Assembly: GCF_024713945.1 (NCBI RefSeq)
Contig: NC_134680.1
Coordinates: forward strand, 1,140,001 to 1,204,000
Length of the DNA: 64,000 nt
Source: Dermatophagoides farinae
Lineage: Eukaryota > Arthropoda > Arachnida > Sarcoptiformes > Pyroglyphidae
Direction of reading: 5' to 3'
The notes under the pieces were generated by a model. The model was given only the letters and a program-made list of their open reading frames with translations, ran no database searches and was not told the DNA's origin. The translations under genes were made by a program, and so were the position numbers. The stretch's first letter is position 1. Each line of letters opens with the position of its first letter. Below are positions 39,873 to 63,672 of this stretch, piece after piece.

Positions 39873-40721
39873 TATTATTATTATTATTAATAAAAGATAC
39901 ACTGCCAATACGGCACTTGTATCATAAAGAACAACAGAAGAATACAATAGTAAAAATTAAAATAAGATTAATAATGGGATATAATATATCCCTTACAAAA
40001 ATTGTTAAATAATGAAAGATTACATTTGTTTAACATAAATTCTGATGGACTGGAAATATTATGCTGAAACTGTCGGTGAAGTGAGCAGTTGAATAAAATG
40101 TGGCTAGGATCTTGATAACTATGGCCGCATTCACATGCGGGCGATGGTTTGACATTGATACGGTGGAGATAGCTCATGAATAAGCCATGGCCAGTAATAA
40201 ATTGAACATTGAAAAAATTGGGTTTGAAGAAATACGGGATATGTGATGTAGGGAAAAAACTTTTAAAATTATCATTCACATGGTTAAAGTAATTATTAAT
40301 TGAATGTTTCTTCCGAAGGGCCATAACAATTTTTCTAACAGCCTTGTCTTGAATCTTGTAGGTAATTAAAGAAGAATCAATGTAATCAGTTAATTTTTCG
40401 ACATTGTTAAGAATACAAACAATGTTGCATGAAACCGTTTGATATGCATAAATTGATTTTAGCAATATATGATGTTGAATTGAGTTGAGCTTATTTTTTG
40501 TTTTGACAATAAGTTTATCACCCCAAATTTGATAACCGTACATGATAGCAGGACGAATCATCCCTTTGTAGAGATTAACTCTTTTCTTATGGCTAATTCC
40601 CCATGTATTGCCAATCAAAGCGAACAAAATATTACTAATTCTTTGTATCTTATTCGTTGTATTAAGAATATGTGGCGTAAAATTCAATTTATTACGATGC
40701 CTGTGATTACCAAACGTGAGT
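39873..40721 (-). mobile_element. 5'-truncated non-LTR retrotransposon (LINE)
   Basis: An 849-bp insertion on the minus strand flanked by a 15-bp direct repeat AATGGTAATGATGAT at 39858-39872 and 40722-40736. Its 3' end on the minus strand finishes in an (ATA/TAA)n tail, as in I/Jockey/R1-type elements that end in simple repeats instead of poly(A). Only the C-terminal part of the pol protein is present, the normal outcome of incomplete target-primed reverse transcription. The flanks are partly low complexity, so the duplication is strong but not conclusive. Confidence 0.8.
39968..40687 (-). pseudogene. LINE pol C-terminal fragment with CCHC-type finger
   Basis: An open stretch of about 239 codons without a genuine start (the first codon shown is TTG). 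It matches the end of non-LTR reverse transcriptases: LNFTPHI, then RISNILFALIGNTWGISHKK, LYKGMIRPAIMYGYQIWG, FITGHGLFMSYLHRI, and a terminal CECGH...HILFNC finger. Just upstream, at about 40690, the preceding piece (TGIVIN) is in another frame, so there is at least one frameshift. The RT catalytic YxDD is not in the fragment. It is a dead relic. Confidence 0.85.
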
Positions 40722-40736
40722 AATGGTAATGATGAT

Positions 40737-42874
40737 GATAGTATGGAAAAAAATCAAAGTTGCCCTTGTTGTTGTTGTAAGCTATTTTGTCATTCATCCA
40801 TAGAAAATGAATGGCCAAGAAAAAAAAAGTCAAAAGCTTTGCACACACACACACACACACAGGCCAACAATCATACAAGAGCTTTATATTTTGGTTGATA
40901 TTTTTTCTTCTATTCATCTATCTATACCATTGTAATTATCTTATTCGAGCACCAAGTTTACACTTGTGCAATCGAATGAATGAATTCGATGGATGGGATG
41001 AAATAAATGGATGGCTCGCCAAAAAAAAAAAAAAAAATCATTGAACAAAGTGTATATGCTGTTGTTGTTGTTGTTCCAAAAGAAGCTCAACATCAAAAAC
41101 AAAATAAACGAGAAAAAAAGAAAGAAAAAAAATCGACTTACAACTCGGGTGACTTATTGTATTGCATTATTATACCACACACACACACACACACACACAC
41201 ATAAATACGACAACGATGAACGAGCGGATTAGCTTTTTTTGGAATGGAATGAACTTTGTCCCGAACACCAAGAAAGAAAGAGACAACGAGAAAAAAAAGA
41301 TAGACCCTGTTTTCGTTATAAACATCATCACCGTTTTTTTTTCTTTTTTTTTTGGAACAGTTAATTTATTTTTTTTTCTTTTTTCTGTCTACGTGTTTTT
41401 TGCTGATCGTGTGTGTGTGTGTGTCTGTCCCAAAAGACAGATGGATCATCTGGAATGATCATTGTTTGTTGTTATTGTTGTAATAATGAACAATCGAGTC
41501 ATTAACACTTTTTTAGTTCATTATGTGTGTGTGTGTGTTTGTAAGTTAATTTTATTCGAATAAAAAGTTTTTTTTTATCAATGAAAATTTACGGTGAGAA
41601 AAATAATATTTAAGAAAAAATTGATTCAAGTTCCATGATAAACAGCATCAGTGATGATCATTTTTTTTTTTTTATTATTAAACAGTTATATTGGAATAAC
41701 AATAATATTTAGAATTGAACGAAAACAAATTTGCATAAATGTAAATGAGATGATATCCATCATCATTGAATATAAATTTCGATGAATGTATGGAATGAAT
41801 GTGAATAAAACTCTTAAAGCTGAGAAAGAAGATGAGCCATCACTCGATCAACAACAACAAGAATTTCAAATCGTGTCGATCGTTAAATTGGGCAAGCAAA
41901 GCAAAGCGAAAAAAAATGGTCACAACTACACGATATTGTCGACAATAGCGAAAAATTCCATCGTATTTTTTTCGGACATAATAAAGTTGCAAACATCAAT
42001 AAATCAATGAGATTCATGGAATTTTTTTTTTGTTTTGTTTTGTTTTTTTTTGGCACAACGACTAGCCATTTTTAGAATTCTATTTTACTTTCTTTTTTTT
42101 CGGATTCCTACTTTAGGATTCTAGCTGTGTGTGCGTGTATGTGTGTGTGTATGTGTGCGTTTGAGTGTTGGAGCCATCCATTTGTTTAACAATTCAGTTT
42201 TTTTTCCTATTTGGTCGGTTTAGTTGTTTGCTAAAGCCATCAAATATTCCTAGACATTATCAGTCGGTGAAAACAATAGAAATGGTTTGATTTTAATAAT
42301 AATAATAATAACAACAACAACGAAAAACGAAATAAACAGCGAGAATGAAAAATATTCACCATAAGTGGTAATAATAACGATGATGATGATGATGATGATA
42401 ATGGAACATGTCTCCATCGTGAATATTGACATTTGAAGAAAAAAAAAATTTAAAAATAAAAATAAAGTCTGTGAGAAACATTTTTAGGATATTAACCATA
42501 TTTATTCAAAGTAAAAAAAATGGCAATTTAAAAAAAAATAATATTCAAACTGTAAATCTTTCGCTCTCTCATCAATTGCTGTTGGATTTTCTATTTTTGA
42601 ATCAAATGTTTTTGTTAGATTATCATATGTACGACAATGAGATTTTTGAATTTTTTCTTTTCTTTTTTTTTTGATTCTGGTTAGTTGATTGTGGTTTTTT
42701 TTTTTGCATATTTGATGCTTGTGATATTCTTCTGGAATATATTTTTTTTATTAATCTTTTTCCCATATGTTTTGGTTGGTTGGTTTCAGCTTATTAAGCA
42801 TTCTGGAATCATCATCAAATTTATTTCGTGACGGGAATGATTTTTTTTTTGTTGTTGTTCTTGTTGTAAAATAT
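40737..42874. other. Spacer upstream of the LINE and 3' of beta-COP
   Basis: About 2.1 kb rich in CA/TG microsatellites and A/T runs. One stretch at 41786-42010 has a more mixed composition and encodes EDEPSLDQQQQEFQIVSIVK within a 74-codon frame, but nothing recognisable. No gene can be supported. Confidence 0.4.
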
Positions 42875-45800
42875 TCAAGCAGCTTTAGCCATCTTTTGTG
42901 ATGTATTAATTTTATCACCCAAACTTAATGCCATTCCTTGTGATTTGGCACGTATACGAATATGACCGGTAACCGGTGCATCTAATGATGTTTTCTCAAT
43001 ACTTACATTGGCTAATGCATCTTCTCCGAATATTGATTTTGCATAAAGATTTGCAGCTAAAAATCCACAATTACCCGATAATGATTTTTGTGGTGTCAAA
43101 CATTTCATGTTAGTCGATTTGATCAAATGATTTAGATATTCAATAAGATCATTGATTCCCGTATTGACAGTCACTTTATTTTCCCATTCAAATTCCGTCC
43201 ACATCTGTCGAAATTGTGCATCACTACATGTAGCTGGAATAATATAGTCCATGATGTCGATATAAATATCGTTCAAAACGACAACATTACGATCCGATGT
43301 TGATCCCGAAATATCGTATACTGTTTTTTTTTTGTTTTGTTTTTTATTTTCATTCAAATAAACAAACAAATAAATAGAAGAGAGAAAGAGAGAATTGAAA
43401 TAAGAGGTTAAATCGAGAAAAGAAACAAATCAACATTAGATTCTTTCATAAAAAGTTTTTTCATGTCAAAATTCTGTACATGAAAAACAAACAAACAAAT
43501 AAACACAAACACTTACCGATATTGCCAAAAATAACAACATTTTCGGTCGATGTTACTTTAATCGATGCACGAACATTGGTGAAATCATGTGGTGCCAATA
43601 CGATTGGCTGTGGTTTTTCAACCAATTTTAAATCACCAATAGTGGATAATTCAAGTGTACAATTCTGTAATGTATCCGATGTTTGATTGACAATCAATAC
43701 ATCCAATGAAATATCATATTGATTGACATTCACATAACATTCAGCATAAACAGGATCACCAAGACCAGTTAATTGTGTTACTTTGGATAATTGACTTGCC
43801 GATAATAGATCAGTGGATGATGATGATCTACCCGAGGCAGTTGATGTTGCTGTTGGTCCAGCAATCGCCTGATTAAGGCTTACATCTAATAGATTTTCCA
43901 TCTGTTCATTTGCTTTGTTAATAAGCTGTGAAAATATTAAATGATCATCAATTTCTACAGCTTTTTTAGCTTTATGCAATACGGAATCATATTTGATTTC
44001 ACTTTCTTTTGAATTATCCAACATACTCATTAATGATTGTCGTGTGTCACGTATGTAAATCTGGCTCATTAATGATTCAATTTCATTCGTATCAGTATTG
44101 TTAATATTGATCAATACATATAATGATAATGAAATTCTTTCATAATCATCTTCATTAATCATTTGTGTAACCAATTTAGATTTTCCCAAATGTAAAATTG
44201 ATGTCAAAATTAACATTGATTCAGCTAGATAAATATTAATTGATCGTTGATCAACATCAACCATCTGTTTATAACGAAGCGATAGTTTAACCAAACAATT
44301 GGCAATTGTTGTTCCGATAAAAAATTCATTATTCACCAACATATATCGACGTAATGGTGGTTGTGATTGTTCATTGGCTGTAGTTTTTGTTGTCAAACTT
44401 AATGCAGATTGTGTTGCATATGAACCATCGGCTGTGACCAATTTTGGTGCCGATGAACTGGCCGCTGTTTTGGAAACATCATGATTTGCGTAGGCATTAA
44501 CATTATCTTCATTACCATTTTCAATTTTACGTAGTTCACTTTCAACGATAGGCAATTCTCCCATGGATGTTTTGATAAGTTCAAGTACTTCTTGTAGTTG
44601 GAGGGCATTTTCATCACAAAATTCGCCCAAAAGCCAAATCAATCCACGATGTACCTTGACATTATTGATCGATGCAAATACCTCCATTAATTTACTTAAG
44701 ATAAAATTTTTAAGTTGAGCATTTTTCGAAATAAATTGCCTACAGAATACAATAACCAGTATGGCCGTTGTTTCATCATTTTTCGTGGCCAACAATTCAA
44801 ACAATGTAGTTAAAACATTACTTGAATTAATTACATCCGGATATTTCATACAAATAACATGAATAGTTTTGACCAACATTTGACAATATTTGCTATTCTC
44901 TTCTTGTGTTCCATGTGATTCATTCTGTGTTTTCAATATCTCTTTCTTTAACAATTGAACCAATTCTTCCACATTACGTAGAGTTACCAAATCTAATGAA
45001 AGATTCAAGACTTTTTGTTTGACTTCCAAATCGGTGGCAACATTCAGTATTCGTAGAATGTCCATCAATAAATCCTGTAGGATACGTTCAGCACCGGAAG
45101 CAGAATCTTTCAATGAAATTAATCGATCCAATACAATTAGCTTTACATTATTGTCACTTTCATTGATACAAATATCAATGAAACAATTGGCTGCAGCTTT
45201 CAAAGCTGTAGGAGCTTGCGATAATGTAACCAATGTTGCGGCCGCTTCATATCGAACCGATGCCGATGTAGACATACTCAATAGATTATAGATTGCACGA
45301 ATAAATTTTGAACGTTCACCCGGATTCGATATACAAACTTTATAGATCAATTCAACAATGACCAATTGAAGAATTTCATTGAAACTTCCAATTTGTTCCA
45401 AACATGAATTCAAATAATCCAAAGCTTTTTTCTGATCCAAATGAATCAACATAAGAAATGCATTACGTTTACAGCTAGCATCGGACTCACGGCTCAAAAA
45501 TTCCAATACTAATTCTGGTGCATCCGGTATGAGAAATTCAAAATTCATATAGATCTTAAATATGGCTAATACTGCATTACGACGAACATATGAATGACGA
45601 TGTTCTAAACATTGGCGAATGGTGGGCAATAATGGTTCTAATAGTTCGGGTTCTTTAAGTTTACACAAAAATCGCAATGTTGATCCACGAATATATTCGT
45701 TTGGATGCTGTAGATCTTTACGGTAAGCATCACAAACCAAAATCATTTCATGTAATAGTTTACCATCGGGTCCACGTTTCGGTACAATTTCCCAGAAAAT

Positions 45801-46083
45801 TAATAATAATTTCTTAATCTGATGATCATTCGATGGCAATAAATAACGGATGACAAACATCAACATGTTTGGTGGAAATTTTTCGCCATTCAAAATGATG
45901 TAGATTAATTTTTTCAGTGCCAAAATTTTGGATTTCGTATCACCTTTTTCTGTGTGATGTGGGTTTTAGTAATTATTTCAAGTTTTTTCGGAAATACTTA
46001 CCAATATCATTTCGTATCGATACCTCATTAGTAGTATCATCAGTTTCAACATTAATCAATGTATAACAAATAGATTCGGCCAT
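42875..46083 (-). CDS. COPB1: Coatomer subunit beta (beta-COP)
   Basis: Three exons, 46002-46083, 43517-45949 and 42875-43320, join in frame to 986 aa, close to the usual 953. Intron 1 (donor GTAAGTATT) links NDI to EKGDT, as expected for the family N-terminus; intron 2 links IFGNI to [12 protein letters not shown]. An Armadillo/HEAT adaptin N-terminal region covers most of the protein ([71 protein letters not shown]). The C-terminal appendage carries [60 protein letters not shown] and [13 protein letters not shown]. Beta-COP is a subunit of the COPI coat for Golgi-to-ER and intra-Golgi traffic. A serine/threonine-rich linker (near 43800-43870 and 44370-44480) is longer than usual. Confidence 0.97.
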
Positions 46084-46181
46084 GATTTGATAATTTTAGC
46101 AAAATTGTAATAATAAAATAAAATAAAAAAATCGGAAAAATCAGCCGGTCGATCAAACAACAAACACCGAATAAATGAAGA

Positions 46182-46288
46182 CCACGTCACTATTGAGCCC
46201 ATTTGTCGATCCATCTGTTACGCCATCTTCCGGATGAATATTAAAAGCTAGTTTTTTATAATAATTCATAGATAAAAGATGGCGCCAT
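46182..46288. promoter_or_regulatory. Beta-COP promoter elements: UPRE-like and YY1/ETS-like sites
   Basis: On the gene's strand, TGACGTGG (46182-46189) matches the core of unfolded-protein-response elements bound by XBP1/ATF6, about 100 bases upstream of the ATG. CCGGAAGATGGC (46222-46233, minus strand) combines ETS and YY1 cores, and AAGATGGCGCC recurs in the opposite direction at 46276-46286. A secretory-pathway gene under stress control would be sensible, but this rests on motifs only. Confidence 0.4.
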
Positions 46289-46289
46289 A

Positions 46290-46601
46290 GTTCAGATTTG
46301 AAAAAAATTATTTTTCAATTTTCAAATTTTCAAATTTTATTTTTTAAATTGATTTGTAATGAAATTGAATAATTTTTAATAAAAATTAATTAATAATAAA
46401 AATCAAAGTTTTACAATATAATCAAAATCAAAATCAAATAAATGGGTTATTTGTTTTTGTTTTACGATTTACAATTAATAATAAACAAAATATGCAACAT
46501 CACAGAAGAAAATGGTCCAGAAAAAGAAAAATATCGAATCGTTGTAAAAATTTGTTTATTTCTTCAGAACAACAACAACAACAATAACAATAAAAAATAA
46601 T
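46290..46601. other. Short intergenic spacer, no gene seen
   Basis: A+T-rich sequence between the beta-COP promoter and the MsrB 3' end. It should hold the MsrB 3' UTR (TTTATT, that is AATAAA on the minus strand, occurs near 46555). Confidence 0.4.
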
Positions 46602-49350
46602 TTACAAATCACTTTCCAATACAGCAGTAGTAGCAGCTTTTGATGGTGATGATTTTTTCGTTACCGATGATGTAAATGTGTGTTTAATAACACTTTTTTT
46701 GCTCATCATATTTAAATGATCAAGATAACGGGATTTCACATCACTATATAATTTATTAGTCATTAATGTCGTTGAATTTGTTGTTTTATTATTACTATAT
46801 TGATTATTGTTATTCAAATCACTTTTAATAGAATTCTGTTGTTCTTGATCAAAAGTGTTGGCAATTTTTCTGATACGATTGTTAAAAACCATCATTGGTT
46901 GTTGTTTTATTGTTGTCGATGATGATGGTGATGACAATGAATTTTTTATACGGTCATTGATTTCGTTATATTTAGTTGTACGAATATTATTTAATGTTGA
47001 TGATGATGATGATGATGATGATTTGAAAAAATCCTCTCTATTCATTTGAACTTTTCTTGCATGCAATGATGGTTGTATTGCCATTGATGATGATGTTGAT
47101 GATAACGTTGTTTCATTCGTTGTTCCATCAATTAAAGGACGTGTTGTAGGTGATAATGACTTTGTCTTTGATTGTTTAGATTGACGATATGGTTTCGTTG
47201 GTATTAATAATGGTTTATTTGTTATATCAAATGATGATGACAATTGTGATTTAGTCTTTGTTGAATCGGTATCCGATGACGATTGTGGCTGTGTTATATG
47301 CGTTGGTGGTGTTGGTGGTGATAATGATTTAGAATTAATTATTTTGGTGGGCGAACGAAAACAGCAGCTCGATGATACTGATGTTGCTGGTATATCACAG
47401 ATAACTTCTTCACCATTAGATTTTATAAATTTTAATGCAGCTGAATTAACACAATAACGTTTACCGGTTGGCCTTGGACCATCATCAAATACATGGCCAA
47501 TATGTGCACCACATTTTGCACATGTTACCTCTGTACGTGCCAGATCTTGATTTAATGCTAATAATAATAGATTTCCACCGACTATAGATTGTAAATAAAC
47601 CAAAAAAAAAATCGATTATTCAAATTAATTGATTTTTTTTTCATCACATATAAATGAAGCAAATGAATTTTCAATCAACAAATCAATCAAGTAATCAATC
47701 ATTGAAAAGCTGATGATGATGATGATGAGCATACGTCAATCATCATCTGATCATCATTCCAATAACGGTTGACAATCACTGAAAATACAACAATTTAAAA
47801 TATTTGAACTATTCGAATGTTTTAAAATGGTAAAAATACGGTTGAAATATTTGAATGTTTTTTTTCGCCTGTCTTGTTTGTTTGAATTTCATTTTTACAC
47901 CATGTATATTCATCATCATCATCATCATCATCATCATCGATCATTGAATTCATTAGTAGCAACAAGAAAAAAAAACCAAGGCCATAACAAAATTGATGGC
48001 CATGATCGTCGTCGTCGTCGTCGTTGAGCAACAATTGATGCATGCAATAAACATATGTCTGTTGATTTTATTTGAATCAATGATTTGATTTGTATTGATT
48101 TTAACAAAGAAAAAATGTTTTACGAAAATTTACACAGTGTATAGTGGAAAACTTTCAATCAGGAAGAAAGATTTAATCGATTAAACCTTTTGAACTAATT
48201 TCAAATAGAGAGAAAGCGAAAAAAAAACAATTTAAACATGAAAATTACAACAAATTGTAAATAGTGATTGATTGATTTATCGATTGAATGATTGATTCAT
48301 CATGAAAATTCATAAACAAAGTATCAAAATAGAATAAACAACAACAACAACAAAAAGAAGAAGATAAATTCTTACCATGAGAAAGATCGGTCTGTGTGAT
48401 CAATTTATCTGCATCAATCGTATTATAAAATGCTGGCCAACCGCAGCCAGAATCATATTTAGTTTCCGATGAGAATATCTCTTCACCACATACAATACAA
48501 CAATAGATACCATGATCATTTAGACGTAGATATTCACCTGAATATGGCCTAAATTTTAATAATAACAAATGACAGAAAAAAAAACAGTTCACATTAATTA
48601 ATTGGTACTAAAATTGGGACAAAAGAAAAATTAAAACGTGAGAAAAAAGAACAATAAAAATAATTAGTACATCAATTGACTTAATCAATGCAAAAAAAAC
48701 AAACAAACAAAATGATGATCATGGAAACAAAAAACAAAAAGAAAAAGATAGATTCGCAAGACAAATAAAATAAAAAATCAGTATTGCACACAGTTGACTA
48801 ATTGCACCAGCTAAGGATTTTTATACAAAGGTAAAAAAAAACACTTTTGTCTTTTAAATAATAAGTACAATGTAAAAATAAAATGCAAAAGGTAAAAATA
48901 AATACCGATGACAAAATAAATCAACGGATTAGATATAATCAACGACAAAAAAATCAGATAATCCAATAAAAAAAAATGAAAAGAAAAAACTCATTAAAAT
49001 CATTGAACCGTGTGTATGAAGATAATAAATTGAGGATCTTTATGATGATCAAATGATGAAATATCAATTTTGTTTTGTTTTTTATTTTTTTTTTAAAAAA
49101 AACATTACCTTTCAGTAAATTTTTCTTGTGTTATTCTATATTGTAATGGTGTTAATTTTTGTTTCAATTCATTTTTATCCACTTGTATTTCAGGTTTACG
49201 TGGTGGACGAAAACGATTATGGAAACGATTAGCTGTTGTAGTTGTTTTTGATGCTGCTGCTGCCGCTGCTGTTGTTGTTGATGAGGATTTATTTATTGTA
49301 TTTGATTTAGATGATGTACCTGGTGTTGGTATAACAATTTGTGTAGACAT
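46602..49350 (-). CDS. MsrB: Methionine-R-sulfoxide reductase B (SelR) with long disordered C-terminal tail
   Basis: Exons 49109-49350, 48376-48548 and 46602-47581 give 464 aa. The joins restore the family sequence: [12 protein letters not shown] and [12 protein letters not shown]. Zinc ligands are the pairs Cys98/Cys101 (CIVC) and Cys159/Cys162 (CAKC). The catalytic residue is Cys182 in GKRYCVNS, a cysteine and not selenocysteine. Cys116 in SGCGWPAF is the probable resolving residue. The enzyme reduces methionine-R-sulfoxide with thioredoxin, repairing oxidised proteins. The N-terminal 45 residues are S/T/A-rich. The domain ends near residue 195, leaving about 265 residues rich in S, T, N and K; typical MsrB proteins are 130-200 aa, so the tail is exceptional. 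The ATG at 49350 was preferred over an upstream in-frame ATG at 49389. Confidence 0.9.
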
Positions 49351-51483: not shown

Positions 51484-51729
51484 ATGTATCGTGATTTTTA
51501 TCGACAATATATGCAACAATATAGAAAAATTATTTCTGTTATACTTGATAATTGGCCATTACGTAAACAACTTGGATTCTATTCATATTTGCCGATATTT
51601 TTTGCTATCGGTGCATGGACTGAATTCTCAATGATTCATATGCGTATAAATGGAATTGATTTCTATTCGGTTTATAAACGAAAAGAACAGGAACGTTTAC
51701 TAGAAGAACGTAAGGTAAGAAAGTCTTAG
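51484..51729 (+). CDS. sloth1: Sloth1 / SMIM4 (UQCC5) homologue, complex III assembly factor
   Basis: 81 aa from the ATG at 51484 to the TAG at 51727. The core LGFYSYLPIFFAIGAWTEF, then MIHMRINGIDFYSVYKRKEQ, matches SMIM4/UQCC5 (LPFFFVLGGTMEWIMIKVR, FYDVYRRKASER). That family is a small single-span inner-mitochondrial-membrane protein needed to assemble ubiquinol-cytochrome c reductase. The span is about residues 33-50, preceded by a basic segment. The sloth2 frame starts 219 bases downstream on the same strand, the arrangement known from Drosophila. The sequence GAACGTAAG|GTAAGAAAG near the stop is also a good splice donor, so the last four residues (VRKS) may be replaced in some transcripts. 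An upstream in-frame ATG at 51367 would add 39 residues that do not look like the family. Confidence 0.82.
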   Translation: MYRDFYRQYMQQYRKIISVILDNWPLRKQLGFYSYLPIFFAIGAWTEFSMIHMRINGIDFYSVYKRKEQERLLEERKVRKS

Positions 51730-51948
51730 AAATCACCATTTCACCATTCAAAATATTATAAATGATAAACATAAAAATTCGGTAAACTTTACAATCAACA
51801 ATATTCATTCGAATGTTCATATGGCTCGGTAAGTTTCCTGGTAAAACTATGTAAACAAACTTGTTTGATTCACATGTGCTATGTGTGAATGAATTCAATG
51901 AATTTTTTACAAAATTGAAAATAAAAATTCAATCCAAAATCTCAAAGA

Positions 51949-52243
51949 ATGCCATTTGGTTTATCATGGTCAACATATTTATCACGTATAATGGCCGCTT
52001 TATTAGCCACTGCTTGTGGCTCACAATTTATTCATTCCATTTATCGGCCTTTAGAATCAGATGTAAATTTTATAAAAAACAATAAATTGCCATTATCCGA
52101 TAACTAAATTCTTTTTTTCTTCCAATTTCAACATGTAGAGAATCGAACAAATGTTGGAAACAAAACGAGTACAATTGGAACAACAATCATCATCATCAAC
52201 AACGACAACGACGACGACGTCAAACATCACAAATCAATCCTGA
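51949..52243 (+). CDS. sloth2: Sloth2 / brawnin (UQCC6) homologue, complex III assembly factor
   Basis: Exons 51949-52062 and 52139-52243 give 72 aa, essentially the size of human brawnin (71 aa). The N-terminus MPFGLSWSTYLSRIMAALLA, then GSQFIHSIYRPLE, parallels brawnin MPAGVPMSTYLKMFAASLLA and its YYRP motif: a short hydrophobic segment followed by a charged tail. The intron has a GTAAAT donor and an excellent acceptor (CTTTTTTTCTTCC...GTAG). Unspliced reading would give a 53-aa form ending PLSDN. Brawnin is a small inner-membrane peptide essential for complex III assembly and acts with SMIM4. The serine/threonine-rich end looks lineage-specific. The ATG is preceded by CAAAG, which might itself be an acceptor. 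Confidence 0.8.
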
Positions 52244-57400: not shown

Positions 57401-58481
57401 AGTCCCGAAAAAAAAGATGTGTTTAGATCCGGTTTTTTTTCGACTTCATCTATTTATCTGATAAATTTTTCACCATAAAAGTGTGTCTGTGGATGAGCGC
57501 AACAGGTCAAATAAGTTATGAAACAAAAACCAAAAAAAAAAAAAAAAATCAGATCAAAACTAAATTAGAAAATGGTCAATAGGATTTGTTTTTTTTTCTT
57601 CTTCATAGAGAATTCATTTACGTAAACATTTTTTTTATATATTATAAATTCGAAACAACTAAAATAAATTGTCACACAAATATTTGACATTGACATCGTT
57701 GTTCATTCTCAAATGATTACATCATCATTCATACATGGTGGACATGGTGATATCGCCTATTTTTTTTCTGGTTAATGGAAATGATCTTGCTTGTTACGAT
57801 ATATAAATACATGTAACAAACATCACATTGCAATGTAAACGATAGACAGAGAAAAAGAGAGAATATATATGTTGATATTATCACCAATTTGGTTTTCATT
57901 TGATTATCATCATCATCATCATCATCATCAGATTTTTATTTTGTAAATTGAATTTTTTTTTGTTGTGCTTGTTAGCAAGAACTAAATGTTAAAGAAAATT
58001 TTCTTGGCTATTTTTACCTGTTTTGTAAATATACATACACACACACACACACTACATATGATCGCGAAAAAAAAGCATGAATGCCATAATTCCAAATGTA
58101 TGTCAATTGCTGCTCGCGTGTTATGATTGTTTTTTTTTTCGAATCAATAATATTTATCATCATCATCATCATTTATATATATAACCAGTTTATTTCTTCA
58201 CTCAGCCTGATAAATTGACCACCGTATAGAGATAAACGAATGGAAAAGAAAAATCCATATAATTAAGCCATCCTTTTCGTTACTTTGAGCATTTTTGAAT
58301 TTTGCTTTTCCTTTTTTTTCTGCTGTTATTTTCTAATGAAAAATAATAATTTCTTATTTTCCTTTCCTATAGAAAAAAACATTGACATTCATTCGACATT
58401 TATATATTTCGAAAATTTTTTTTTATTTTAAAAATCTTGATTATCGATTTACAACGCTTTTATATTTTATATATATGAAAG
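54418..58481. other. 4 kb spacer of simple-sequence DNA
   Basis: Microsatellites (CA/TG, CAT/ATG, TTTG, GAA) and long A/T runs, with no conserved coding segment. It presumably holds the tetraspanin promoter on the left and the OGFOD3 promoter on the right. Confidence 0.45.
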
Positions 58482-59630
58482 ATGGTCCAAAATAATCAAC
58501 ATCATCATCATCGTCGTCGTCGAAATTTATTGCATAATGTTGATAATAAAAACAGACATTCAAATGATGATGATGTTGATGATCAACAAAATGATGGCCG
58601 CCAATCTATTAATAAAGATGGTAACATCATTGGCGAACAAAATAATTCAAAACAACAACAACAACAACAACATCGATCTATGAACAGAAATGTTTTCAGT
58701 CATGGTAACCATAGTCATGTTTATTCAATATTATCATTGCCAATTTGGTTACGAAAAATTATAATATCAATGTCAATCATGTTTATCGTTTATATTTATC
58801 ATCATCATTATAATAATAATCAAAATAGAAATCAATTACAATCATCAACTAATATAACAATGGCTTCAATAAACGATAATCATTTAGGAAGTCCATTTGG
58901 ACAATTTAAACAATGTTCTAATGATTATGAACAAGATCGATTACAATTTAAATCATGTACACCGTATAAATGTGGCCGTTTTGTTAGCGATTCAATTGTC
59001 AATGATAATGAAGCATTAGAATTGCGATTATTTGCTCAAACTATATTCACAATGGTACAACCAAATGGTGGTGTTGCTATTTTTGATCTAGCTTCCGGTG
59101 CCTTATCAAATGGAACACAATTTATAAATCTTTATAAATTATTAAAACATTTACCTGATCGTGAAAAGGTGATCAAACAAAAAATATTCGATACATTTCA
59201 TGTTGTACGGAAGAAATTATTACAAACAATTACAATGACATTCGGTATTAAAAGTGATCATCTTTATTTAACAAGTCCAGTATTTTTTACAAAAATCAAT
59301 TCGAAACAAGCAGCAAAAACATTAAATGATGAATATTGGCATCCACATATCGATAAATTTACATACAATACTTTTCATTATACATCATTACTTTATCTGG
59401 CCACATATCAGGAAGAATTTTCCGGTGGTCGATTTATTTTTATCGATAATGATGAAAAAATTAACAATACTATTATTGAACCAAAATTTGGTCGTATATC
59501 ATTTTTCACGTCCGGTTCAGAAAATCAACATATGGTCGAACAAGTTTCGAATGGTGAAAGATTTGCATTGACCATTCCATTTACATGTGATCCAAATAAA
59601 CAGGTTATTCTACCGACAACAACCATATAG
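58482..59630 (+). CDS. OGFOD3: OGFOD3-like 2-oxoglutarate/iron-dependent oxygenase
   Basis: An intronless frame of 382 aa. The first 80 residues are basic and H/Q/N-rich; one membrane span lies at about 84-106 (type II orientation), then a lumenal catalytic domain. The prolyl-4-hydroxylase-like fold shows its iron ligands His289 and Asp291 (WHPHIDK) and distal His350 (ENQHMVEQV), with Arg360 (NGERFAL) placed to bind 2-oxoglutarate. Cysteines near 145-164 and 369 may form disulfides. OGFOD3 is a membrane-anchored member of the family with unknown substrate. Its neighbour YOD1 is convergent and ends 135 bases away. Confidence 0.87.
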   Translation: MVQNNQHHHHRRRRNLLHNVDNKNRHSNDDDVDDQQNDGRQSINKDGNIIGEQNNSKQQQQQQHRSMNRNVFSHGNHSHVYSILSLPIWLRKIIISMSIMFIVYIYHHHYNNNQNRNQLQSSTNITMASINDNHLGSPFGQFKQCSNDYEQDRLQFKSCTPYKCGRFVSDSIVNDNEALELRLFAQTIFTMVQPNGGVAIFDLASGALSNGTQFINLYKLLKHLPDREKVIKQKIFDTFHVVRKKLLQTITMTFGIKSDHLYLTSPVFFTKINSKQAAKTLNDEYWHPHIDKFTYNTFHYTSLLYLATYQEEFSGGRFIFIDNDEKINNTIIEPKFGRISFFTSGSENQHMVEQVSNGERFALTIPFTCDPNKQVILPTTTI

Positions 59631-59765
59631 CTACATACAAACAAATTGATCTAATTTTTTTTTTAAATTTTTTATTAATAAGAAAATAAAATTCACATTG
59701 ATCAATTTAATCATGTTCATACTTGAGTATAATTTTTTTGAATAATTAAAAAAAATCAATTTTGA

Positions 59766-60710
59766 TCATTTTTTTTCATTCAATTCACTAAAATTTACAT
59801 GTCCAGTAGTGGATGCATGTTGTCTGGCTTGATTCTGATCAAATAGCCTATTACATTGATTACATTTAAGATACATTCGATTTAGATCAGTATATTGATG
59901 TTTAGCTTTAGCTTTACGTGCAACATCTAATGCCATTTCAATGACAATAATATCATCTGATGAAAAATTTGTCTGTAATGGATTATCCATATCATTTGAA
60001 TGTACCACTAATGGATCATAATGTATACCATCAAATATTAAAAATATACGTCTTGGATAATTTTTATCTTCACCAAAACGATTAAGACGTTCATTCTGGG
60101 TATCAACAGCAACGATTTCAATTTCATAATATGATGATAATATTGCAAGTTCAATACCACCACCCCAATGATCTTCATTACGTATCCATTTTTGATATAC
60201 ATTGTTTGGTTTACCTAGAAATCCTTCATTATATGTAATTGGATCGGATTGTACCGTTTCAGCAATAAGATTACGTAATTGTGGACATTTTTCCTGTATC
60301 TCTCCGGTTAAACAAAAATGTACACTAACAAATAGACAAGAATTGTTGGCAGGCACTTCGATACGATCCATTCGACGTATTAGTTGTTGGTTCCGGGCAT
60401 CGAATTTTTCAACGTTGGTTATTGGTTTTACATCTGTAAGATTCGATTTATTTGATTGACCAACAATTTCATTCATTATCAATGTTTCACGACGATTCGG
60501 TATTATATCTTTGATTAATTGTTCATCATCGACCAGAAAAATTTCCTGTGGTGGATAACCGATCATTAATTTACAATTATCTGGATGCATATCGGTTACA
60601 CTCCATATTACGGATTTTAATTCACCAATTGTTGATGATGTATGTAATGTATCGATATTGAATTGACCATTTTTAGTCTTAATACGTAGATGTATGTTAT
60701 CATTGGCCAT
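59766..60710 (-). CDS. YOD1: Ubiquitin thioesterase OTU1 (YOD1)
   Basis: An intronless frame of 314 aa (human about 348). Order: UBX-like N-terminal domain (residues 5-80), linker, OTU cysteine protease domain (about 115-260), and a C-terminal C2H2 zinc finger (CNQC at 283-286 with His298 and His304). The nucleophile is Cys125 in VPANNSCLF and the general base His230 in FDGIHYDPL, followed by Asp232. The family motif is PADNSCLF; here the Asp of DNSC is Asn122. OTU1 trims ubiquitin chains on p97/VCP clients during ER-associated degradation, using the UBX-like domain to bind p97. Confidence 0.93.
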   Translation of the reverse strand: MANDNIHLRIKTKNGQFNIDTLHTSSTIGELKSVIWSVTDMHPDNCKLMIGYPPQEIFLVDDEQLIKDIIPNRRETLIMNEIVGQSNKSNLTDVKPITNVEKFDARNQQLIRRMDRIEVPANNSCLFVSVHFCLTGEIQEKCPQLRNLIAETVQSDPITYNEGFLGKPNNVYQKWIRNEDHWGGGIELAILSSYYEIEIVAVDTQNERLNRFGEDKNYPRRIFLIFDGIHYDPLVVHSNDMDNPLQTNFSSDDIIVIEMALDVARKAKAKHQYTDLNRMYLKCNQCNRLFDQNQARQHASTTGHVNFSELNEKK

Positions 60711-61324
60711 AGCTCTTCAAATAGAAAAAGATATTTCAATCTTACGAAAAAAACTTACGAAAATATGGAATAAGAAAATTGTTCAGAATTCAGACATCAA
60801 AAATCACCACCATCAACGCTAAAACAATATCATCATCATCATCAAACTGTTTTGAAATATTTAATAAATCTGGCTTTCTGAGTCATAAAAAAAATGCATG
60901 CATGGTATATAAGAAATAAATGTTCGAAACAATAAAGTTTATATTGAATATATACAAACAATCAACAAAAGCACCAAAAAATGCGACGATATTGCCATCT
61001 ATTGTCAACAACAATCGATAAAGTAAATGAATCACGAATTTTTTTTTTGGGATTTTATAACTCGATCGATCAAAAAATTTTTATTCATTTCATCAAATGT
61101 ATCGAATCAATCTGGTTCATGTTTTTGTAAAAAAAAAAGATTTTTGTTTTGTATATAAAGAAGGCTTTACAATGTACAGAAAAAATGTGTGTGGATTATA
61201 TTCAAATATAAATTGTGATTGGTATTTGTGTGGAAACCAGCTTATAGCGTATTTTTTTTTTTTTTTTTTTGAACCAAACGATAAAATGATTTAGGGTGGT
61301 GGTGTTTGTATTTATTCGATTCAT
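60711..61324. other. Spacer between YOD1 start and EDF1 end
   Basis: About 600 A+T-rich bases, with a CAT tract near 60830. It should hold the YOD1 promoter and EDF1 3' UTR. No gene is seen. Confidence 0.45.
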
Positions 61325-61762
61325 TCATTTACCACTTTTTGGTACTAATGGTTGGCCCTTATCTTTACCACGAAGTTTAACGCCTAATGCACGTTCCATT
61401 TTAGCCAAAATCTGTTGATTCGGTATTGCTTTACCAGCTTCATATTCATTAACAACTTGTGGCTTTTCACAAATTTTTGTTGCCAATTCTTTTTGTGTCA
61501 TACCAATTTTTTGACGCTGTACCGAAATCAATTTTGATACATCCATCGATACATGATTATGATGAAAATCTTCAGTTTCTTGATCAAGTTTCACAGCATT
61601 AACACTTGGTCCGGCATGTTTATTTGTGGCTGCATTGAATTTTTTTGTCGTTTCAATCGGTACGCCTGATTTCATAGCATTATTCACCGCTTGTTTACTA
61701 CGAAGATCGGATGCACGTGCTGGACGTTTATTTAATACGGTCACTTTATCCCAATCGCTCAT
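61325..61762 (-). CDS. mbf1: Multiprotein bridging factor 1 (EDF1)
   Basis: An intronless frame of 145 aa, the normal length. The N-terminal MBF1 domain begins MSDWDKVTVLNKRPARASDL and contains AVNNAMKSGVPIETTKKFN and KLDQETEDFHH. A helix-turn-helix of the Cro/XRE type covers about 80-134 (QRQKIGMTQKELATKICEKP, EYEAGKAIPNQQILAKMERA). MBF1/EDF1 bridges transcription factors such as bZIP proteins to TBP and also binds collided ribosomes at the 40S subunit to stabilise frame and trigger quality control. It is transcribed away from the PDHA gene. Confidence 0.97.
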   Translation of the reverse strand: MSDWDKVTVLNKRPARASDLRSKQAVNNAMKSGVPIETTKKFNAATNKHAGPSVNAVKLDQETEDFHHNHVSMDVSKLISVQRQKIGMTQKELATKICEKPQVVNEYEAGKAIPNQQILAKMERALGVKLRGKDKGQPLVPKSGK

Positions 61763-62325
61763 CTTGCAAGAATATTTTTGATAAAATGATTAAAAAAATT
61801 TAAAGTTCAGTTTTTTGTTTCAGAAAAAAATAAATCTGGTGATTTTATGAAACTCGCTAACATTAATTTTTCAACAACGAAAAAAAACACCACACGCAAC
61901 AACATCAATATCTACTGAAAGAAATATAAACCACGTCGTGATCCTCTACATAAATGCCGTTGCAAAAGAATTTTCGCGAAAATTTAATTTGCCATTTTTT
62001 TAAAAATTAAAATTGTTTTCACATATCATTATTGATTGATTGAGAATTTTCGAATGGTTGAAAGAATTCAATCATTGTGATGTTTTAAAATTTGAAAAAA
62101 AAAATTAAGACAACTTTGATTCTTGACCATTCTGGATAAACATTTGAAGAAATAAAGAAAAACTAATATAACATGTCAGCTGATTTGATTCTGCACATGT
62201 GCATTTACAATGATTCTGAATATTCGTTGAAGGAGAATTTGTGATCTCAAAGTTATAACGAGAAATTATTTCCATTTGATTCAATATCATTTTTTTCAGT
62301 AAAAATAATCTAGTCCGATATAGTC
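61763..62325. promoter_or_regulatory. Divergent promoter region of EDF1 and PDHA
   Basis: 563 bases between head-to-head starts. A perfect 16-base palindrome AATTTTCGCGAAAATT at 61969-61984 contains two E2F-type TTTTCGCG cores and sits about 205 bases from the EDF1 ATG. CCACGTCGTG (61931-61940) is an E-box/CRE-like neighbour. No coding sequence is seen. Confidence 0.4.
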
Positions 62326-63672
62326 ATGTTTTCATCACTAACAATTTCGACGATATGGCGAGCGCCCCGAATAAATTTGATTGTACGATGCCAACAACAA
62401 CAACAACAAAAACAATTATCATCAGCAACATTTACCGTACATCCATATAAATTACATCGATTGGATGAAGGTCCATCGACCCAAGTTTCTTGTACACGTG
62501 ATCAAGCATTACAATATTATCGACAAATGACAACCATTCGTAGATTGGAAGCAGCAGCAAATGCTTTATATAAAGAAAAAGCTGTTCGTGGTTTCTGTCA
62601 TCTTTACACTGGTCAAGAAGCTGTCGCCGTTGGAATGGAAACTGCTATTACGTAATTACAAATATACCTTATTCGTTTGCATCATTAATTCCAATCTTTT
62701 TTGTTTCATTTTAATTGAATTAAATAGGAAAAAAGATGCTGTCATCACTGCTTATAGAGCACATGGTTGGACATATTTACGTGGTGTATCACTTTTAGGT
62801 GTTTTAGCAGAATTAACTGGTCGTCAATCTGGTTGTGCTCGTGGTAAAGGTGGTTCAATGCATCTTTATTGTGATGTATGTGTGATGGTTATCATTTCGA
62901 ATTATAATGAAAATAAATATAATTGATTTGTTTTTTTTTATCATAGAGATTCTATGGTGGAAATGGTATCGTAGGTGCACAAATACCATTAGGTGCCGGT
63001 ATAGCATTGGCACAAAAATATACAGATTCCGGTGAAATTACATTGGCACTTTGTGGTGATGGTGCAGCGAATCAAGGTCAAGTGTTTGAAGCATTCAATA
63101 TGTCAGCATTATGGAAATTACCGGTTATTTTTATTGTCGAAAATAATGGCTACGGTATGGGTACATCAGCTGAACGTGCATCTGCATGTCCATTATTCTA
63201 TACACGTGGTGATTATGTACCCGGTATCTGGGTGGATGGTATGGATATATTGGCAGTTCGTCAAGCAACCGAATATTTAGTAAAAATGTGTCGTGATGGT
63301 CAAGGACCATTCGTTATGGAAGCAGCAACTTATCGTTATTTTGGTCATTCAGTATCCGATCCAGGTACAAGTTATCGTACACGTGATGAAGTACAAGAAG
63401 TACGTCGTTCACGTGATCCAATTACAATGTTTAAAGAAAATATTCTACAAGCTGAACTTGTTACTAGTGATGAATTGAAACAAATCGACATTGAAATACG
63501 TAAGGAAGTGGATGAAGCTGCACAAAAATCACGTGTAGATCCGGAATTACCTGTCGAACATTTATATAATGATGTATATGTAAATAAGATTGGATCCGAT
63601 ATACGTAGTACAACACCATTTCAACATCATAAACATGAAAATACTGCTAAACCATCAAATATTTCAATCTAA
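62326..63672 (+). CDS. Pdha: Pyruvate dehydrogenase E1 component alpha subunit, mitochondrial
   Basis: Exons 62326-62651, 62728-62875 and 62947-63672 give 399 aa, matching the usual 390-400. A basic, S/Q-rich mitochondrial presequence occupies about the first 35 residues. The joins restore [21 protein letters not shown] and [18 protein letters not shown]. The thiamine diphosphate motif is complete: [11 protein letters not shown] through IVENN. The phosphorylation loop [20 protein letters not shown] keeps serines at both main regulatory positions targeted by pyruvate dehydrogenase kinase in animals. With E1 beta it decarboxylates pyruvate and transfers acetyl to E2 lipoyl groups, feeding the TCA cycle. 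The C-terminal end (about 20 residues, H/K/T/N-rich) is divergent. Confidence 0.96.

Follow-up and report, generated by a model that had tools for sequence, protein, structure and literature searches.

Linked sloth1 and sloth2 genes have been described in Drosophila, sea squirt, lamprey and a choanoflagellate (Bosch et al. 2022, PMC9681215). In Drosophila the two genes (CG32736/CG42308) are carried on one bicistronic mRNA, in shifted frames separated by a 5-nt spacer, and encode proteins of 79 and 61 aa, respectively (PMC9681215). The two proteins interact directly or as members of one complex and act in complex III assembly (PMC9681215, PMC8719881), and flies do not survive strong overexpression of Sloth2 without co-expression of Sloth1 (PMC9681215). 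The human proteins SMIM4 (UQCC5) and C12orf73/brawnin (UQCC6), the name-giving members of both families, are encoded on separate chromosomes (PMC9681215), are interdependent, function early in complex III assembly, and both have C-termini that face the intermembrane space (PMC8719881).

We identified an orthologous pair in Dermatophagoides farinae, within the window analysed here (the whole stretch of 64,000 nucleotides, from which all positions are counted). Set beside the fly by the published description (PMC9681215), the mite pair is alike in its members (SMIM4 and C12orf73, in the naming of that paper), in having sloth1 first, and in adjacency. Profile searches linked both frames to the families that an earlier note had proposed for them: the Pfam profile PF15114 (SMIM4/UQCC5/Sloth1) matched the 81-codon open frame at 51484-51729 (+) with 76.1 bits, over positions 3-65 of 67, and PF14990 (brawnin/UQCC6/Sloth2) matched the spliced 72-aa form with 40.8 bits over 1-37, the cut-off being 27 for each. 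The tandem on one strand, with a spacer of 219 bp (51730-51948), was likewise confirmed. In contrast to the fly, this spacer most likely lies in an intron of Sloth1, the two start codons (465 bases apart) are in the same frame, the last exon is probably shared, and the products would have 111 and 72 aa (Table 1). Judging from the sequence, we consider it probable (about 0.68) that two alternative coding first exons are joined to one shared C-terminal exon, in a single complex dust-mite locus.

Table 1. Features of the sloth1/sloth2 locus of D. farinae and its neighbours in the window; a slash marks a predicted exon boundary.
Feature	Position	Strand	Details
Neighbouring genes: coatomer beta, SelR domain protein	43461-48607	-	Pfam
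Sloth1 (SMIM4/UQCC5-like) coding first exon	51484..51714	+	77 codons, ends ..EERK, phase 0; PF15114
Read-through end of the 81-aa frame	51715..51729	+	VRKS + stop; intronic in best model
Sloth1 intron	51715..52138	+	424 bp, GTAAGA...TAG; holds Sloth2 first coding exon
Possible Sloth2 5' leader intron	51829..51947	+	TCG/GTAAGT ... CTCAAAG/A; donor 7/9; speculative
Sloth2 (brawnin/C12orf73/UQCC6-like) first coding exon	51949..52062	+	38 codons, phase 0; PF14990
Sloth2 intron	52063..52138	+	76 bp, GAT/GTAAAT...TAG; acceptor common with Sloth1 intron
Probable shared last coding exon	52139..52243	+	34 codons + stop; RIEQMLETKRVQLEQQ then Ser/Thr repeat; phase 0 from both first exons
Neighbouring genes: 2OG-Fe(II) oxygenase (+), OTU1-like and MBF1 (-)	within 58479-63672	+ and -	Pfam

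The 81-aa frame, which the earlier note had taken for Sloth1 itself, is real and carries the domain, but it is not likely to be the Sloth1 product, because its relatives diverge exactly at the donor 51714/51715. The last four codons and the stop of the frame fall 3' of this donor (AAG/GTAAGA), and the end of the frame is not conserved, D. pteronyssinus-like frames continuing as VSFILK.. and that of Euroglyphus as VSFCIL... Scored against the metazoan consensus MAG/GTRAGT, the donor reaches 8/9; of the 6180 GT sites that the two strands of the window contain, 11 have this score and none a higher one. Counting both strands, the window contains the string AGGTAAG a single time, on the + strand.

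A protein search with Sloth1 returned nine proteins out of 10 candidates. Five of these (P0001, P0004, P0005, P0007 and P0008) continue across the donor into Val-Ser or Val-Arg, like unspliced DNA, and three (P0002, P0003 and P0009) go on with a RIEQMLE-type or diverged tail. The 111-aa P0002 of D. farinae (nr) and the 115-aa P0003 of D. pteronyssinus (uniref and nr), identical to the Sloth1 exon at 76 and 67 of its 77 residues, respectively, consist of Sloth1 joined to the exon at 52139-52243 of the window. P0008 and P0009 are identical over their first 66 aa and split exactly at Val-Ser, which can be coded by GTN AGY; beyond the split P0009 enters a diverged last exon, with 6/16 first positions identical to those of the window, a pattern that we would expect of the unspliced and the spliced version of one gene. 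The missing intron points to an RNA origin of P0009, and the public Sloth1 models may be prediction alone. The remaining protein, P0006, is a Euroglyphus gene model that departs from Sloth1 at the donor, but into another, later stretch without reaching the shared exon, and it counts against our preferred reading. Conservation of the donor across mites is in all these cases a protein-level observation. From these comparisons, mature Sloth1 is most likely, and with good support, a protein of 111 aa read from 51484-51714 spliced to 52139-52243, which would place the first exon of Sloth2 within the Sloth1 intron.

The PF15114 match on P0002 stops at residue 77, the final residue before the junction, indicating a tail added on to the SMIM4 domain. 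Instead of a small protein that ends near the end of its domain (79 aa in the fly), the best model of mite Sloth1 has a 34-aa tail past the domain; this is variation in length, and the domain itself is unchanged. As to the single transmembrane helix that marks the SMIM4 family and the N-terminal one that marks the brawnin family, the highest 19-residue Kyte-Doolittle mean is 1.09 in Sloth1 (residue 35) and 1.31 in Sloth2 (residue 14).

We additionally noted two differences past the donor. P0001 (93 aa, from a 1370-base contig) equals the 81-aa frame, except that it has Tyr at the TAG stop of the window (51727-51729) and then continues, which suggests an allele or another strain without that stop, or a TAG that is read otherwise; a lost stop would be expected at this position if the stop is intronic. 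P0004 and P0005, both D. pteronyssinus-like, differ as if by a frameshift beside an A-run (KNKKKMHEIF.. vs KNKKKNA, judged from the protein), which is variation of the kind expected in intronic sequence.

How Sloth2 is expressed bears on the strongest of the alternatives, a bicistronic mRNA that retains the intron, in which the 81-aa Sloth1, a 219-nt spacer and a spliced Sloth2 would follow one another, with Sloth2 translated by leaky scanning or re-initiation. Such a message might exist alone or beside spliced Sloth1, in which case it would overlap with our preferred reading. The fly orthologues do come from one bicistronic transcript (PMC9681215), and the AGs ahead of Sloth2 are compatible with it. 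Two AGs were listed in the interval from 51730 to the Sloth2 start codon, with their last bases at 51833 and 51947; the longest pyrimidine runs at these sites measure 3 and 4 bases, where the window averages 4.5. A cassette is thus a less likely reading of the Sloth2 exon than a first exon, or an exon that runs on from Sloth1 where the intron is retained. The spacer is nevertheless not the short one of the fly (5 nt), and 13 ATGs (eight in the spacer and five inside the Sloth1 frame) precede the start of Sloth2, which speaks against leaky scanning of the fly type. Taken with the very strong Sloth1 donor and the unconserved end of the 81-aa frame, these features make such a message unlikely. 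The earlier note had suggested an mRNA of this form, with the 81-aa frame, the spacer and the 72-aa frame; given the donor, the position of the spacer inside the Sloth1 intron and its eight ATGs, this is not the best model.

Under our preferred reading, Sloth2 would have its own transcription start, or a leader exon, inside the Sloth1 intron. A leader exon ending at 51828/51829 is speculative: removal of the corresponding intron would, by eye, set an in-frame ATG GCT CGA ahead of ATG CCA, and the longest pyrimidine run at its acceptor is 4, against the window mean of 4.5. We also considered 51948-52062 as an internal exon of Sloth1, and rejected it, as no more than 4 pyrimidines stand in a row at its acceptor and its 115 nt would shift the Sloth1 frame.

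The two proposed joins (51714^52139 and 52062^52139) translate 52139-52243 in one frame. This exon is present in the Sloth1 models P0002 and P0003, has a diverged counterpart in P0009, and lies 3' of Sloth2 in P0010. The acceptor of this exon, at 52138, has 15 pyrimidines in a row, and a run at least as long is present at 1.4% of the 1866 + strand AG sites in the window. For comparison, runs of 8 and 9 are found at the two acceptors of a gene at 62314-63672 (+), which we take to be pyruvate dehydrogenase E1 alpha-like (PDHA-like). The pyrimidine fraction over 16 bases separates the acceptor poorly from the AG at 51947 (0.69 vs 0.62); over 31 bases the values are 0.74 vs 0.42.

An AlphaFold2 model of P0002, built on a 3-sequence alignment (mean pLDDT 71.3, pTM 0.32), has a predicted helix at residues 32-55 and another over residues 60-95, across the junction at 77/78, with pLDDT values of 90 and 87 in the blocks 71-80 and 81-90, respectively. 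From residue 97 on, confidence is low and we take the end as disordered. Among the solved structures none matches Sloth1 or Sloth2 by sequence at E <= 1, and none of 151 pattern matches in viral contigs encodes a relative. The sole match from a scan of prokaryote genomes with P0002, an Alteromonas contig resembling residues 75-102 (46% identity, E 2e-5 among candidate stretches), we regard as a chance likeness to the charged tail. To our knowledge, human SMIM4 and C12orf73 have no common tail. The Ser/Thr codon repeat at 52190-52220 reads SSSSTTTTTTT in the window and SSSTTTTTTTT in P0002; it is a coding microsatellite, variation in which would alter both protein tails at once.

The 72-aa Sloth2 of the earlier note stands as a carrier of PF14990, but its last exon is also used by the Sloth1 gene models. 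The 72-aa product arises from the frame starting at 51949 only once the intron 52063-52138 is removed. The donor of this intron, GATGTAAAT, does not stand out, with 830 of 6180 GT sites in the window scoring equal or better, and in size and loose donor the intron can be likened to two introns of the presumed PDHA-like gene (donors GTAATT and GTATGT, in introns of 76 and 71 bp, respectively). A search with Sloth2 returned three proteins out of five candidates, P0002 again among them (92% identity over 51% of the query), and the profile search returned five out of 783. Just two of the latter five, P0010 and P0011, contain Sloth2 sequence; both are from Euroglyphus maynei, P0010 being placed there through its identity to the named P0011, and both retain the intron-coded stretch. 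P0011 is a gene model without part of the domain, for which no Pfam match is listed. In P0010, a first exon identical at 32/38 residues is followed by a 57-nt stretch and then by the shared exon (13/16 first residues identical). The 57-nt stretch has no stop, and its codons begin with Val-Asn and finish with Gln, compatible with GT..AG, before the sequence continues as RIEQMLETKKAELEQQ. From this splice-site anatomy and the one related species, Euroglyphus, we infer that Sloth2 uses the shared exon.

The Sloth2 proteins could alternatively reflect a nested gene without exon sharing, in which Sloth1 would own both outer exons and Sloth2 would be a single-exon gene with a stop at 52105-52107 and a product of 52 aa ending in ..ESDVNFIKNNKLPLSDN. 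This unspliced form reaches 43.0 bits on PF14990 over 1-43, 2.2 bits more than the spliced form, and a spliced Sloth2 was found neither among the five candidates of the Sloth2 query nor among the 783 of the profile search. The tail that a nested gene would need, however, shows no conservation: a stop is missing from the Euroglyphus frame at this point, and when the intron-coded stretches of the two species are aligned the score is -13, against a shuffle mean of -7.3; of 2000 shuffles in which the first two residues were kept fixed, 85% scored equal or better. In addition, D. farinae and Euroglyphus both have Val-Asn, which is codable by GTNAAY, at the corresponding position, and the fly orthologue is longer, at 61 aa (PMC9681215). 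We consider a nested gene improbable. Weakest of all, and very improbable, would be two separate genes, with Sloth1 polyadenylated near the AATAAA at 51920, Sloth2 under its own promoter (a TATAAAT lies in the spacer at 51757) and the public Sloth1 models having wrongly borrowed the last exon of Sloth2, as a gene predictor might: the two words occur 143 and 30 times, respectively, on the + strand of the window, and the models of two species and the intron-less P0009 agree on the join. At a G+C content of 29.6%, promoter words are uninformative, the TATAAAT included, so that they speak neither for nor against the absence of an obvious separate promoter stated in the earlier note.

We investigated the copy number of both families by an exon-by-exon search of the genome (62,435,336 bases in 22 contigs), in which PF15114 and PF14990 each gave one match at E <= 0.001 among the best candidates scored (4 and 1, respectively), counts that are lower bounds. 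With one match per family in the genome, the adjacency of the two is hardly due to chance. In Euroglyphus, P0006 and P0011 carry the neighbouring tags BLA29_003658 and BLA29_003657, and the lengths of the source sequences agree, both for P0006 and P0011 (1935) and for P0007 and P0010 (1561). From these names and lengths, Sloth1 and Sloth2 are very likely linked in this species too. Elsewhere in the window we noted a 261-aa open frame at 39968-40753 (-), without a Pfam match at E 0.001, which to us resembles the terminal part of a polymerase from a non-LTR retroelement.

The suggestion of the earlier note that the tandem is old was right, but had already been published, and the linkage reaches deeper than the arthropods (PMC9681215). 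Sea squirt, lamprey and choanoflagellate resemble the mite in showing linkage outside the insects, with a 'similar bicistronic gene architecture', whereas the part of their description available to us does not mention exon sharing (PMC9681215). The probable sharing of the last exon is the new point, and we found no report of a shared exon at a sloth1/sloth2 locus in the titles and abstract openings of a mostly non-subscription literature. RNA-seq and PacBio Iso-Seq data have been reported for D. farinae (PMC8487952).

Our preferred reading remains that of two coding first exons on one shared last exon. The first exons of Sloth1 and Sloth2, 234 bp apart, would each bring their own start codon and family domain, and both would be spliced in the same phase to the same last exon, Sloth1 reaching 111 aa by skipping the Sloth2 exon and Sloth2 reaching 72 aa. 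The common tail would consist of a charged stretch prolonging the C-terminal helix of Sloth1, followed by the disordered Ser/Thr repeat, and, if topology is as in human, it would be exposed to the intermembrane space on Sloth1 and Sloth2 alike. A role of the mite pair in complex III assembly is predicted by homology. In mammalian UGT1A, several coding first exons are likewise used with common last exons, and different N-terminal parts are joined to one C-terminal part through first-exon choice; the UGT1A products are, however, variants of one enzyme, whereas the mite locus would give two different interacting partners. Annotation can miss Sloth2 at such a locus, as the named entries returned for D. 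farinae and D. pteronyssinus (P0002 and P0003) are Sloth1 only.

More tentatively, and at somewhat less than even odds, we propose that in house-dust mites and their relatives the ancient pair became one gene with two coding first exons, once Sloth1, having lost its own stop, had taken over the final exon of Sloth2, with the result that both proteins would carry the same tail in the intermembrane space, and the choice of splice site or promoter, instead of leaky scanning, would set their ratio. Splicing, besides one shared message, may then decide which partner is made. A shared last exon would in itself be a different means of coupling two partners whose ratio matters, and would show an adjacent pair turning into one spliced gene.
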